Shown piece by piece: positions 47,575 to 56,725 of a DNA stretch of 64,000 nt. Origin of the DNA: Variovorax sp. RA8 (GTDB taxonomy: Bacteria > Pseudomonadota > Gammaproteobacteria > Burkholderiales > Burkholderiaceae_C); contig NZ_LR594662.1 in assembly GCF_901827175.1 (NCBI RefSeq), positions 2,170,001 to 2,234,000 on the forward strand. The letters run 5' to 3'. Numbering within the stretch: the stretch's first letter is position 1; every line of letters begins with the position of its first letter. Position numbers and translations under genes: made by a program. The notes beneath the pieces are model-generated. The model was not told where the DNA came from and made no database searches. It was given only the letters and a program-made list of their open reading frames with translations.

Positions 47575-49350
47575 ATGTCCAGCGTCGTCGTCCCCGCCCC
47601 GCACCATGAAGCGAAGAGCTTCTGGACCCGCTATGTCTGGAGCCAGGACCACAAGGTGATCGCGGTCCAGTACGCCTGCACCGCCATCGCCGTCGGCGTG
47701 ATCGGCGTGGTGCTGTCGAACCTGATGCGGCTGCAGCTGGGCTTTCCCGGCGCCTTCGAGTTCATCACCGCCGAGCGCTACTACCAGTTCGTCACCATGC
47801 ACGGGATGATCATGGTGATCTACCTGCTCACCGCGCTCTTCCTCGGCGGTTTCGGCAACTACCTGATCCCGCTGATGGTCGGGGCGCGCGACATGGTGTT
47901 CCCGTACCTCAACATGCTGAGCTTCTGGGTGTACCTGCTGTCGGTGCTGGTGCTGATGGCGAGCTTCTTCGTCACCGGCGGGCCCACCGGCGCGGGCTGG
48001 ACGCTCTACCCGCCACAGTCCATCCTGCCCGGCACGCCGGGACGCGACGTCGGCATCATCCTCATGCTGGTGTCGCTGCTGATCTTCATCGTCGCCACCA
48101 CCATGGGCGGCCTCAACTACGTGACCACCGTGCTGCAGGCACGCTGCGAGGGCATGACCCTGCTGCGCATGCCGCTGTCGGTGTGGGGCATCTTCGTGGC
48201 CACGATCCTGGCGCTGCTGGGCTTCCCGGCACTCTTCGTTAGCGGCGTGATGCTGCTGCTGGACCGCGCGGTCGGCACCAGCTTCTTCATGCCGGCGCTG
48301 CTGTCGATGGGGCAGGCGACCCCCTACAAGGGCGGCAGTCCGCTGCTGTTCCAGCACCTGTTCTGGTTCTTCGGCCATCCCGAGGTCTACATCGTCGCGC
48401 TGCCGGCCTTCGGGCTGGTCTCCGACCTGATCAGCGTCCATGCGCGCAAGCGCATCTTCGGCTACCGCATGATGGTCTGGGCCATCGTGGCCATCGGCGG
48501 GCTGAGCCTGGTGGTGTGGGCCCACCACATGTTCGTGGCCGGCATGAACCCGTACTTCGCCTTCTTCTTCGCGACCACCACGCTGATCATCGCGGTGCCC
48601 ACGGCGATCAAGGTCTACAACTGGCTGCTGACGCTGTGGCGCGGCGACATCCACCTGTCGGTGCCGATGCTGTTCTCGCTGGCCTTCATCTGCACGTTCG
48701 CCATCGGCGGGCTCACCGGCCTCTTCCTCGGCAACGTGAGCGTGGACATCCCGCTGTCGGGCACCTACTTCGTGGTGGCGCACTTCCACATGGTGATGGG
48801 CGTGGCGCCGTTGCTGGTGGTGTTCGGCGGCATCTACCACTGGTACCCCAAGGTGACGGGCCGCATGCTCGACGACCGGCTGGGCCAACTGCATTTCTGG
48901 ATCACCTTCATCGGCACCTACCTGATCTATTTCCCGATGCACTACCTCGGCTTGCTGGGCATGCCGCGGCGCTACTACAACTTCGATCTCTACCAGTTCA
49001 TCCCGCCCTCGGCCTACAGCCTCAACGCCTTCATCACGGTGGTGGCGCTGGCGGTCGGCGTGGCGCAGGTGCTGTTCATCTTCAACCTGGCGTGGAGCGT
49101 GCGGCATGGCCGGGTGGCGGATGGGAATCCATGGCGGGCTGCTTCGCTGGAATGGCAGACGCCGCAGACGCCGCCGGTGCACGGCAATTGGGGGCCGGCG
49201 CTGCCGGTGGTTTATCGCGGGGCTTATGCCTATGGAGTGCCGGGGGCGCGGGAGGACTTTATTGCGCAGAATGCGCCGCCGGATGCGGGTGGGGTGGAGG
49301 AATCCGAGGAGCGGGGCGGCAAGAGTGGGGATGGGGGAAGGGCGGCATGA
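47575..49350 (+). CDS. coxA: Cytochrome c oxidase subunit I
   Basis: This catalytic haem-copper subunit of 591 residues has 12 or more membrane helices. Ligands are visible: the low-spin haem His in TMHGMIMVIY, the Cu-B His and cross-linked Tyr in FFGHPEVYIV, two more Cu-B His in WAHHMFVAGM, and haem a3/a His in VVAHFHMVMG. The Glu of GHPE marks an A1-family oxidase with a D-channel. The last 80 residues are Gly/Arg-rich and poor in membrane helix. The repeat element at 49365-50060 starts just after the stop. Confidence 0.96.
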   Translation: MSSVVVPAPHHEAKSFWTRYVWSQDHKVIAVQYACTAIAVGVIGVVLSNLMRLQLGFPGAFEFITAERYYQFVTMHGMIMVIYLLTALFLGGFGNYLIPLMVGARDMVFPYLNMLSFWVYLLSVLVLMASFFVTGGPTGAGWTLYPPQSILPGTPGRDVGIILMLVSLLIFIVATTMGGLNYVTTVLQARCEGMTLLRMPLSVWGIFVATILALLGFPALFVSGVMLLLDRAVGTSFFMPALLSMGQATPYKGGSPLLFQHLFWFFGHPEVYIVALPAFGLVSDLISVHARKRIFGYRMMVWAIVAIGGLSLVVWAHHMFVAGMNPYFAFFFATTTLIIAVPTAIKVYNWLLTLWRGDIHLSVPMLFSLAFICTFAIGGLTGLFLGNVSVDIPLSGTYFVVAHFHMVMGVAPLLVVFGGIYHWYPKVTGRMLDDRLGQLHFWITFIGTYLIYFPMHYLGLLGMPRRYYNFDLYQFIPPSAYSLNAFITVVALAVGVAQVLFIFNLAWSVRHGRVADGNPWRAASLEWQTPQTPPVHGNWGPALPVVYRGAYAYGVPGAREDFIAQNAPPDAGGVEESEERGGKSGDGGRAA

Positions 49351-49364
49351 GCACTGCACTGCGC

Positions 49365-50060
49365 CTTCTGCTTGTACGTTGCGCTTCGGTTGAGGCCGGA
49401 GCCGGGATTTCGCCCCGGCGGGCGAGTTACTTTCTTTGTCTCGCCAAAGAAAGTAACCAAAGAAAGGCGACCCCACTGCGCGCGTCCCTCCGCTTCGCTA
49501 CGGGCAACCTGCGGTGCTCGCTTCAGGCGGGGTGCGCGCAAACTCGCTTCGCTCAAACACGCGCGGCCCTTTTTTCGCCTGAAGCTGCGCTCCTCGGCAC
49601 GCGCAGAGGGGCGTGGGGACCGGTCGGGCCATTGCTTCGCTCGGCCATCAACGGCCTTGCTGCGCAAGGCCTGGAACAGGTGCAGGTGCATGCGCCAGTG
49701 CGTGCGCATGAGCACGAGCGTGTGCGTGAGTGTCAGCGTGAGAGAAGACCCGAAGCTCACGCCAACCTGCACACCACACAAGGACGCGCCATGGCGCGTT
49801 GGATTCCAAGTCCCCTCTGGCCGCGCCGAGGAGCGGAGCTTTTCGCGGATCAGGGCCGCGCGTGTTTGAGCGAAGCGAGTTTGCGCGGACCCCGCGAAAA
49901 GCGAGCACCGCAGGTTGCCCGCAGCTTCGCTGCGGGTCGCGGCCAGTGGGGTCGCCTTTCTTTGGTTGCTTTCTTTGGCGAGACAAAGAAAGTGACTCGC
50001 CCGCCGGGGCGAAATCCCGGCTCCGGACTCACACCAAGCGCAAAGTACAAACAGAAAGCC
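49365..50060 (+). repeat. About 696-bp palindromic element A, in oxidase operon
   Basis: This fills the gap between coxA and the next gene. Its left arm (about 49365-49611) and right arm (about 49812-50060) are inverted copies of each other. Each arm can fold as a cloverleaf: outer stem P1 (49471-49482 with 49600-49611; right arm 49812-49825 with 49938-49951), hairpin P2, stem P3 (49520-49529 with 49576-49585; right arm 49838-49848 with 49892-49902) and inner stem P4. The centre carries the 16-bp palindrome ACGCGCCATGGCGCGT at 49784-49799. A second copy lies at 55690-56397. No intact gene is present; open frames through it are spurious. Confidence 0.85.
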
Positions 50061-50140
50061 CGGTCCTCCCACCCCAACCCTCCCCAAGAGGGGGATCGAG
50101 CAAGACCGGACAAAGACGAAGGCCCGAGGGAGACCACCCG

Positions 50141-55604: not shown

Positions 55605-55689
55605 CAGGTAACCGCCTGCGAGTTCGCTTGGCGTCCTGTTCTCTTCCCTTCGGGGGAGGGGTAGAGGTGTTCGTTCGCCTGTTTTGGCG

Positions 55690-56397
55690 GTGTGCTTGTT
55701 TTGAGGCAGGAGCCGGGGCGTCGTCCCGGCAGCCGAGTCACTTTCTTTTGTCTCGCCAAAAGAAAGTAACCAAAGAAAAGGCGACCCCACTGGCCGCGAC
55801 CCGCAGCGAAGCTGCGGGCAACCTGCGGTGCTCGCTTTTCGCGGGGTCCGCGCAAACTCGCCTCCGGCTCAAACACGCGCGGCCCTTTATCCGCGAAAAG
55901 CTGCGCTCCTCGGCGCGGCCAGAGGGGACTTGGAATCCAACGCGCCATGGCGCGTCCTTGTGTGGGGTGGGGGTTGGCGTGAGCTTCTGGTCTTTGCTGA
56001 CGCTGACACTCGCGCCCATGCGCATGCGCATGCCCATGCCCATGCTCGTGCTCGTGCTCGTGCTCGTGCTCCAGTTCGTGCGTGTTCGCATGTGCCAGTT
56101 CCAGGCCTCGCGCAGCGAGGCCGTTGGTGGCCGAGCGAAGCGATGGCCCGTCCCATATCCCCTCTGCGCGTGCCGAGGAGCGGAGCTTTTCGCGGATCAG
56201 GGCCGCGCGTGTTTGAGCGCAGCGAGTTTGCGCGGACCCCGCGAAAAGCGAGCACCGCAGGTTGCCCGTAGCGAAGCGGAGGGACGCGCGCAGTGGGGTC
56301 GCCTTTCTTTGGTTACTTTCTTTGGCGAGACAAAGAAAGTGACTCGCCCGCCGGGGCGAACTCCCGGCCCCAGCCTCAAACCAACAACAGCGCAACA
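55690..56397 (-). repeat. About 708-bp palindromic element B, between fliQ and fliR
   Basis: This is the reverse complement of element A (49365-50060), so that both read in the same direction as their host operon. Arm pairs are P1 (55785-55798 with 55914-55927; 56159-56170 with 56287-56298), P2 in the left arm (55800-55807 with 55811-55818), and P3 (55834-55844 with 55891-55901; 56185-56195 with 56239-56249). The 16-bp palindrome ACGCGCCATGGCGCGT lies at 55940-55955. The spacer holds hexamer repeats (56017-56070). No intact gene is present. Confidence 0.85.
56017..56070. repeat. Hexamer tandem repeats inside element B
   Basis: Nine consecutive six-base units: CATGCG twice, CATGCC twice, CATGCT, then CGTGCT four times. 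The matching region of element A (about 49679-49740) is similar but degenerate, so this is the variable part of the element. Confidence 0.85.
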
Positions 56398-56455
56398 AGA
56401 GAGGCCCGATGCCCAGCGAGTCCCAGCCGAAAGCCAACACCCGATGCCTCATCCA

Positions 56456-56725
56456 CTAGGCGACGAGCTGCGGGATGCTCGAGAACAGCGTGCGGATGTA
56501 GTCCAGCATCTGCCCCAGCATCCACGGCCCGGCGATCACCAGCACTGCGAACACGGCCAGCAGCTTCGGGATGAAGGACAGCGTGGCCTCGTTGATCTGC
56601 GTCGCAGCCTGGAAGATGCTGATGACCAGGCCCACCACCAGCGCCACCAGCAGCAGCGGCGCGCCGAGCAGCAGGGAGACGTGGATGGCCTGGCTGCCGA
56701 TGGACATGACCGATTCGGGTGTCAT
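56456..56725 (-). CDS. fliQ: Flagellar export gate protein FliQ
   Basis: FliQ, 89 residues with two membrane helices, belongs to the FliPQR gate. Family segments are SIGSQAIHVSLLLGAPLLLV and FQAATQINEATLSFIPKLLA. Start ATG at 56725. fliP ends 10 bp upstream. Confidence 0.95.
   Translation of the reverse strand: MTPESVMSIGSQAIHVSLLLGAPLLLVALVVGLVISIFQAATQINEATLSFIPKLLAVFAVLVIAGPWMLGQMLDYIRTLFSSIPQLVA

Follow-up and report, generated by a model that had tools for sequence, protein, structure and literature searches.

MITEs are non-autonomous and carry terminal inverted repeats, and in the attC sites of integrons the structure is kept while the sequence changes. Most known examples of conserved tertiary folds (pseudoknots, triple helices, junctions) come from RNA, and telomerase RNA and the SAM-II riboswitch harbor pseudoknots with a major-groove triple helix. 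REPINs, as described in PMC3116915, are dispersed inverted doublets with a spacer, which are non-autonomous and predicted to fold as single strands. For the IS200/IS605 family (IS608, ISDra2), PMC6006769 describes a transposase that recognises folded single-stranded ends and targets the lagging-strand template, and the attC sites of integrons are reported to be recognised as folded single-stranded DNA hairpins.

Here, we describe two copies of a large inverted repeat from a 64,000-nt stretch of Variovorax sp. RA8 (contig NZ_LR594662.1), the whole of which is referred to as the window. With a probability of roughly one half, we interpret them as a non-autonomous mobile DNA element, the folded single strands of which would be recognised at the replication fork by an enzyme encoded elsewhere in the genome.

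Layout of the elements

The unit of repeat is ~245 nt long and consists of an outer module M2, a module M1 and then a three-way-junction arm, usually occurring as an inverted pair; on the outer side, the conserved unit reaches ~105 nt beyond each arm (Table 1). Independent inverted-repeat detection in the window recovered inverted arms of 213 nt with 89% complementarity for element 1, and inverted stretches of 85 nt at 89% and 70 nt at 79% complementarity for element 2.

Table 1. Features of the two elements, in window coordinates
Feature	Positions	Strand	Description
Element 1, whole	49358-50064		span of the long inverted repeat; flanked by cytochrome-oxidase genes (47575-49350; gene from 50141)
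Element 1 M2, left half	49401-49426	+	hairpin GCCGGG/CCCGGC; loop pairs with downstream GGGCGAG (putative pseudoknot)
Element 1 M1, left half	49426-49470	+	hairpin GTTACTTTCTTTG/CAAAGAAAGTAAC; putative third strand CAAAGAAAG; tail GGCGA pairs with loop TCGCC
Element 1 arm X	49471-49611	+	three-way junction
Element 1 arm X, helices	P1 49471-49482/49600-49611; P2 49486-49504; P3 helix 49509-49530/49575-49597		P3 helix continued by P4
Element 1 spacer	49612-49811		region separating the arms
Element 1 arm Y	49812-49951	-	P1 CTGGCCGCG, P3 GCTTTTCGCGG
Element 1 M1 and M2, right half	49952-50021	-	M2 at 49996-50021
Element 2, whole	55679-56401		start and end approximate; between fliQ (56456-56725, -) and fliR (-)
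Element 2 M2 and M1, left half	55712-55784	+	M2 at 55712-55737; tail GGCGA at 55780-55784
Element 2 arm Y	55785-55927	+	direct sequence reading, inverted-repeat detection
Element 2 spacer	55928-56158		degenerate GGGCAT/GAGCAC-like tandem repeats
Element 2 arm X	56159-56298	-	P1 CTGCGCG
Element 2 M1 and M2, right half	56299-56368	-	M2 at 56343-56368

The M2 region (window positions 49374-49419) also matches alone at several places of the Variovorax sp. RA8 genome, which suggests that such solitary matches are decayed or modular copies. Several elements of this genome often have an extra repeat, CCCTCTCCC..GGGAGAGGGTTGGGGTGAGGG, just outside, on one or both sides. According to the ORF list of the window, ORFs run through the element on both strands and in several frames. 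A coding function of the element was rejected, since P2, P4 and the apical loop often vary in length by numbers of nucleotides that three does not divide. ORFs starting with MGSPFF.YFLWRDKES-like peptides cross M1 and M2 (window positions 49940-50030 and 56290-56370), and gene finders may annotate these as genes.

Fold of the arm and of its outer modules

An initial annotation of the window had pointed to compensatory changes in the stems of its four arms, and these stems are present by direct reading: CTGCGCG at 49476-49482 with CGCGCAG at 49600-49606 for one type of P1, the P1 of arm Y at 49817-49825 with CGCGGCCAG at 49938-49946 for the second type, and GCTTCAGGCG at 49520-49529 with CGCCTGAAGC at 49576-49585 for a divergent P3. 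The four-way, cloverleaf-like shape that it assigned to the arm is wrong, as P4 stacks on P3. The arm is a three-way junction in which P1 forms the outer helix and P2 a small hairpin; the single long arm begins with an irregular helix and continues through the variable P3 stem and an internal loop to P4, the apical loop of which is conserved. The irregular helix is made of two near-identical strands, CTGCGxTyCTCG pairing with CTGCGy'Tx'CTCGG, and P4 is the least well aligned part, with its inner four pairs 74% paired. Arms of some genera are ~170-195 nt long and have a longer insert, compared with 140 nt (L122, L139, L145 and L215-L217 in genomes G148, G249 and G278). When the two arms of element 1 were folded, their stability exceeded chance, with z-scores against dinucleotide shuffles of -2.65, -4.90 and -5.29 (other strand) as RNA and -1.79 as DNA.

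For the analysis of covariation, the best 150 of 174 matches from 94 loci were aligned, 144 of these arms being distinct. The first arm alignment (55 arms) was made by MAFFT alone, and RNAalifold with RIBOSUM scoring gave the helices of 43 pairs on it; an RNAalifold run built into the model construction found only 17 pairs, and the model from the 43-pair structure was used instead. Over the 144 distinct arms, 93.3% of the cells at model pairs are paired, both-side changes occur in 40 of the 43 pairs, and the covariation score is 0.475 as against 0.110 for the shuffled and at most 0.085 for the slid control, though this alignment was fitted to the covariance model and so favours the structure. 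The check proposed in the initial annotation, a covariation test on homologous arms, was run with our own R-scape-like, phylogeny-aware procedure, with a null that preserves the tree and how many substitutions occurred (50 simulations). It yielded 17 column pairs significant at E <=0.05, of which 16 are base pairs of the model and one lies within two columns of such a pair. The claim that both sides of the stems change while pairing is kept thus extends well beyond the four arms of the window.

The case named as refuting this claim was that recombination between repeats had just shuffled two sequence types, with no structure behind them. Within the Variovorax sp. RA8 genome, P1 and P3 types do combine in several ways; however, the many stem sequences found across many genera stay paired, and the covariation test refutes this explanation, which we regard as practically dismissed. 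Selection acting on a folded nucleic acid is strongly supported by the covariation.

Whether the selected molecule is RNA or single-stranded DNA, both of which the initial annotation had allowed, was addressed by counting wobble changes. An RNA transcribed from one strand is expected to show a wobble excess. On the tree of arms (pair 63-241 left out), Watson-Crick pairs changed 51 times to G-T and 59 times to A-C, whereas the same count for RNase P RNA of the order (29 genomes, one of 30 having been dropped because the motif was not found) gave 114 G-T and 20 A-C changes (Fisher p 1.2e-10); both structures came from RNAalifold with G-U counted as pairing, so both counts lean towards G-T. As there is no wobble excess on either strand, selection appears to be strand-symmetric, which fits folded DNA or the use of both strands. 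Selection looks more like that on folded DNA than that on ordinary RNA, and between the two molecules the test leans to DNA or both strands. By region, P1, P2 and P3 (irregular helix included) lean to the complementary strand (30 G-T, 49 A-C; p 0.04), and pair 63-241 and P4 (21 G-T, 10 A-C) lean to the + strand; pair 63-241 is UG in 133 of 144 arms, UA in 10 and CG in one.

M1 was sought as a T-rich hairpin spanning 7 bp or more and was found in 143 of 163 arm flanks, with a purine tract and then a tail behind the hairpin; its hairpin loop pairs with the tail, and the purine strand is mirrored in the putative third strand. Mirror symmetry is required of the third strand of a triple helix. Among 114 distinct cases, 108 could be parsed, 71 with asymmetric and 37 with symmetric stems. 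In the asymmetric stems, the tract is an exact mirror of the purine strand of the stem in 61/71 and a direct copy in 0/71; in the symmetric ones, where mirror and direct copy are indistinguishable, 21/37 match exactly and 16/37 differ in length by at least one base. In arms of L219 and L239, inversion of an A-T pair of the stem is accompanied by C instead of G in the third strand (on the other strand, G instead of C), and the third-strand G opposite the inversion presumably forms a G.T-A triplet. Pairing between tail and loop over 5 bp (G-U allowed) is possible in 93 of 114 cases, as against a mean of 66 and a maximum of 74 upon shuffling, and the changed pairs include CAGCC/GGCTG and TGGCC/GGCCA. 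M1 is probably a pseudoknot with a triple helix, the latter being a structure that we infer from sequence. Like the pseudoknots of telomerase RNA and the SAM-II riboswitch, M1 would have a third strand along a pyrimidine/purine stem and a second stem between loop and tail, but it belongs to a bacterial repeat that is dispersed and has arm stems without the wobble signature of RNA.

For M2, 126 of 136 flanks could be parsed, and in 78 of these loop and tail could pair over 4 bp or more, whereas shuffling gave a mean of 26 and a maximum of 36; a second loop-tail pseudoknot is thus predicted, usually present beside the arms. A minority of arms show no M1, including a second subfamily in the genome of Variovorax sp. 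RA8 (L017, L018), in which the same arm has different outer flanks (CGGCATGCGGTGCGGGCC).

A structured non-coding RNA, for instance a cis-acting one protecting operon read-through or a protein-bound transcript, of which the inverted pair would provide one sense copy either way, is an unlikely alternative that would nevertheless account for the strong covariation, for the location of the elements inside operons and for the prevalence of UG at pair 63-241. On the complementary strand, moreover, M1 has a pseudoknot layout in which a U-rich third strand would run in parallel to the strand of purines, as in telomerase RNA. The absence of a wobble preference, seen against RNase P RNA of the same order, speaks against such an RNA, as does Rfam, which gave no match in the window at the curated threshold and, below it, a best score of 18.8 bits for element 1.

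Pairing, insertion and orientation

In the aligned set, 100 of 146 arms have a partner, giving 50 distinct neighbouring pairs that lie 12-424 nt apart; 46 of these converge and four, from two genomes of one genus, diverge. Same-strand neighbouring arms exist outside the 50 pairs (G080 C23; L228). Diverging arms are found in L218-L221 (G358, G404), where the outer modules lie between the arms, and in L227 (G991), and because of these we consider the half to be the unit, with a reversible geometry. In a distant family of the class, L228 and L229 (G980) have several arms within 1-3 kb at ~50% GC, with neighbours partly on the same strand.

The mean identity of P3 is 0.57 within a pair as against 0.91 for the best match in another element of the same genome (26 pairs, 10 genomes), so an element tends to carry one end of each type. 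P3 is at least 0.85 identical in five of the 50 pairs, including element 2 of the window, and in the listed elements of G007 both arms have the same or nearly the same P3, though P1 or the inner flanks mostly differ. Unlike ends may let each half fold alone instead of pairing with the other half.

A FliQ match is present in 54 of 61 genomes, and 30 fliQ loci were compared, one of which (G014) ends at a contig edge inside the element. The fliQ-fliR gap measures 1-69 nt in 26 of the 29 comparable loci, 856 nt in Variovorax sp. RA8, 946 nt with both arms in G1005, and 400 nt of other sequence in one locus. In G007, whose FliQ is 100% identical to that of Variovorax sp. RA8, the site is empty (17 nt). 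The cox site is filled in Variovorax sp. RA8; of 18 other loci compared, that of G014 is broken off within the element, and 17 have a short gap and no arm. The window copies are therefore insertions inside operons relative to most relatives examined. At both sites, the borders of filled and empty loci are too diverged for a target-site duplication to be read by eye, and copies at shared sites are old insertions and not current movement.

The content of the eight larger spacers inspected (L050, L043, L098, L230, L246, L323, L262 and L437) ranges from an IS110 transposase to unrelated ORFs and host-like genes, with no gene common to all of them and different ORFs in L230 and L437; among the loci inspected, neither an autonomous copy nor a mobilising gene was recognised. 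The IS110-family element (PF01548, PF02371) lies within the spacer of L050 at ~1651-2800 (G032), and relatives of IS110 target hairpin repeats. In L043, a divergent arm pair encloses an ORF (2072-2479) that resembles a GIY-YIG nuclease by eye, without a Pfam or NCBIfam match.

Labels X and Y were assigned by per-genome rules on P1, the inner flank or P3 and are not homologous between all species. Assuming that contigs start at the origin (the sign change of GC skew between the halves is clear only in G007), X is on the left in the first and on the right in the second chromosome half in 34 of 39 labelled elements from five chromosomes of one genus, with two more elements unlabelled. Chromosome half was used since GC skew over 20 kb is too weak to tell the direction of replication at each single element, and the loci of the four genomes besides G007 are at most the best 14 candidates per genome. 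G007 alone has 12 of 13 elements consistent (Fisher p 0.0047), and the other four chromosomes are not significant singly. When sites with shared flanks were merged, 23 of 26 were consistent (p 0.001); a polarity-free permutation within genomes gave p 0.0002, and the 16 distinct sites of G007 and G000 under a common labelling divide 14:2 (Fisher p 0.007). Two shared-flank sites, G032/G010 and G032/G004, have opposite labels. The set is without G013 (7 stretches, not labellable), G159 (12) and G594 (2, too few); by eye, G159 has no clear bias, with five A-left and five B-left elements in a stretch of mostly negative skew and two B-left elements beyond it. With the contig start taken as the origin, elements of this genus tend to be oriented with replication. 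Gene direction is a weaker predictor of orientation (20 of 31 cases co-directional, with a crude gene caller) than chromosome half (34:5), which again argues against a structured RNA. This bias, the insertion polymorphism, the two outer modules and the mirror-repeat third strand are all absent from the initial annotation.

One could alternatively regard the element as host-domesticated DNA architecture, i.e. an extruded cruciform or junction that is bound by a nucleoid, topoisomerase or fork-repair protein and is spread by recombination and not by a dedicated enzyme. Stems evolving without strand preference and the orientation with replication fit this explanation, as do the lower GC content of arms (0.45-0.56) where the host region is itself low in GC (0.42-0.46) and the scarcity of phage matches, a 211-base query having no match among phage records and six stretches matching among viral contigs. 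Yet the insertion between adjacent flagellar genes, at a site that is empty in a relative with identical FliQ, and the copy number, which differs between species of the genus (lower-bound counts), are better explained by mobility, and we hold a purely architectural role to be improbable.

Distribution and relation to known mobile DNA

The genome of Variovorax sp. RA8 (7.4 Mb, four contigs) has 19 matches to arm X, one of only 52 nt, mostly in inverted pairs. Among relatives, at least 33 of 61 genomes have a match, i.e. at least 33 of 37 in the genus and 0 of 24 in other families, where at most the best 14 candidates per genome were scored and zeros are thus lower bounds. An exact pattern of conserved letters occurs in 30 of 299 genomes and 18 of 141 genera of the family, and the reversed-pattern control gave 0 among the matches listed. 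The covariance model, built from 55 arms and applied with strict filters to the best 10 (order) or 8 (phylum) candidates per genome, matched at least 67 of 300 genomes (37 of 135 genera) in the order sample and at least 18 of 398 genomes in the phylum sample, six of the latter belonging to four families that are in the same class but not in the order. Among the matches listed, some single ones of which may be chance, the related pattern is found in at least Variovorax, Polaromonas, Acidovorax, Rhodoferax, Dechloromonas and Zoogloea, and also in Thiobacillus, Silvimonas, Stenotrophomonas, Luteimonas and Rudaea. Three plasmid records match, with Variovorax best, and a large Variovorax paradoxus plasmid has a copy. 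In the open-licence PMC literature, a search with sequence letters found no paper, and word searches gave papers on REPs, MITEs, integrons and RNAs and, among the matches listed, no description of the repeat; the family is apparently widespread among bacteria and undescribed.

In organisation, the element is like REPINs and REPs, with which it shares the inverted doublet with a spacer, dispersal, non-autonomy and a predicted single-strand fold. In contrast to the 20-40 bp hairpin of a REP, the unit of ~245 nt would contain two pseudoknots and a three-way junction, and it has neither a constant RAYT neighbour nor a tag (GTAG or CGTC) at the border of M2. Were the element an oversized REPIN relative, moved by the RAYT (Y1) transposase already present in the genome, it would be organised in just this manner, given the dispersed inverted doublets described in PMC3116915. 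Most arm-bearing genomes tested have some Y1 gene, a RAYT of G060 (NF047646, not detected by Pfam; L442 1240-1988) ends ~45 bp from an arm on its inner side, and in G453 an IS200-type remnant lies ~216 bp from an arm. However, the arm-bearing genomes G604, G442 and G622 show neither PF01797 nor NF047646, RAYTs occur in genomes without a detected arm (G187, G147, G043, G051), and no arm was found at 30 RAYT loci in each of three sets (roughly the best per genome, the sets partly overlapping). Absence of PF01797 alone is weak, as one RAYT outside PF01797 matched NF047646; G469 and G889, without PF01797, have NF047646 matches, that of G469 being a 19-residue fragment only. The tags are also rare: within 12 nt outside M2, in the 98 flanks (of 136) with an M2 start, GTAG and CGTC were found once each and their complements 0 and 1 times, where ~3.4 each are expected by chance. 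RAYT as a necessary partner was rejected on account of the three 30-locus sets and the three arm-bearing genomes without a match to either family, and we consider mobilisation of this kind very improbable.

With IS200/IS605 elements, the element shares folded ends and orientation with replication (34/39, contig start taken as the origin). It differs in having far larger ends, an inverted pair of halves that fall into X and Y types, and no TnpA gene inside: PF01797 was not found in the paired elements, the spacers of the 50 pairs being 12-424 nt long and the larger inspected ones holding other genes. As in integron attC sites, a folded structure is kept as the sequence changes, but the element forms dispersed inverted pairs and not cassette arrays. 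Like MITEs, it appears non-autonomous and has inverted ends, but selection is on base pairing within each end and not on the end sequence alone.

Since the element resembles REPINs in organisation and IS200/IS605 in folded ends and fork orientation, but fails the tested defining features of both, we rate it as new. We tentatively propose that it represents a new class of mobile DNA, the ends of which would be read as a fold conserved in both Beta- and Gammaproteobacteria (two pseudoknots, one of them triple-helical, and a three-way junction) and which would be inserted at the fork in a fixed orientation by a candidate folded-DNA recombinase. The element may thus be categorically new, with the caution that an HUH-type partner, if found, would place it among known kinds.

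As a non-autonomous mobile element, it would be bounded by two inverted ~245-nt units (M2, M1 and arm) with a replaceable spacer between them. The region would become single-stranded at the fork, where each half would fold on its own; an enzyme supplied from elsewhere in the genome would recognise the folded DNA, cut and join it, and new copies would favour one orientation with respect to the fork. What the data show directly is the conserved fold, the usual pairing of inverted halves, the insertion polymorphism within operons and stems that evolve without a wobble signature, together with the orientation bias in one genus if contigs start at the origin; from these we infer the action as single-stranded DNA, the recognition by an enzyme and the coupling to replication.

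The family merits an entry in repeat databases, as long ORFs cross it and may be annotated as genes. A recombinase that reads the fold, if found, could serve as a new tool for the recognition of folded DNA, and the element makes testable how gene-less copies move and why they align with replication. A compensatory fold without the wobble signature of RNA suggests DNA that matches RNA in how elaborately it folds and that is subject to selection of the same kind. If true, this would be a new class of mobile element in many environmental and host-associated bacteria.
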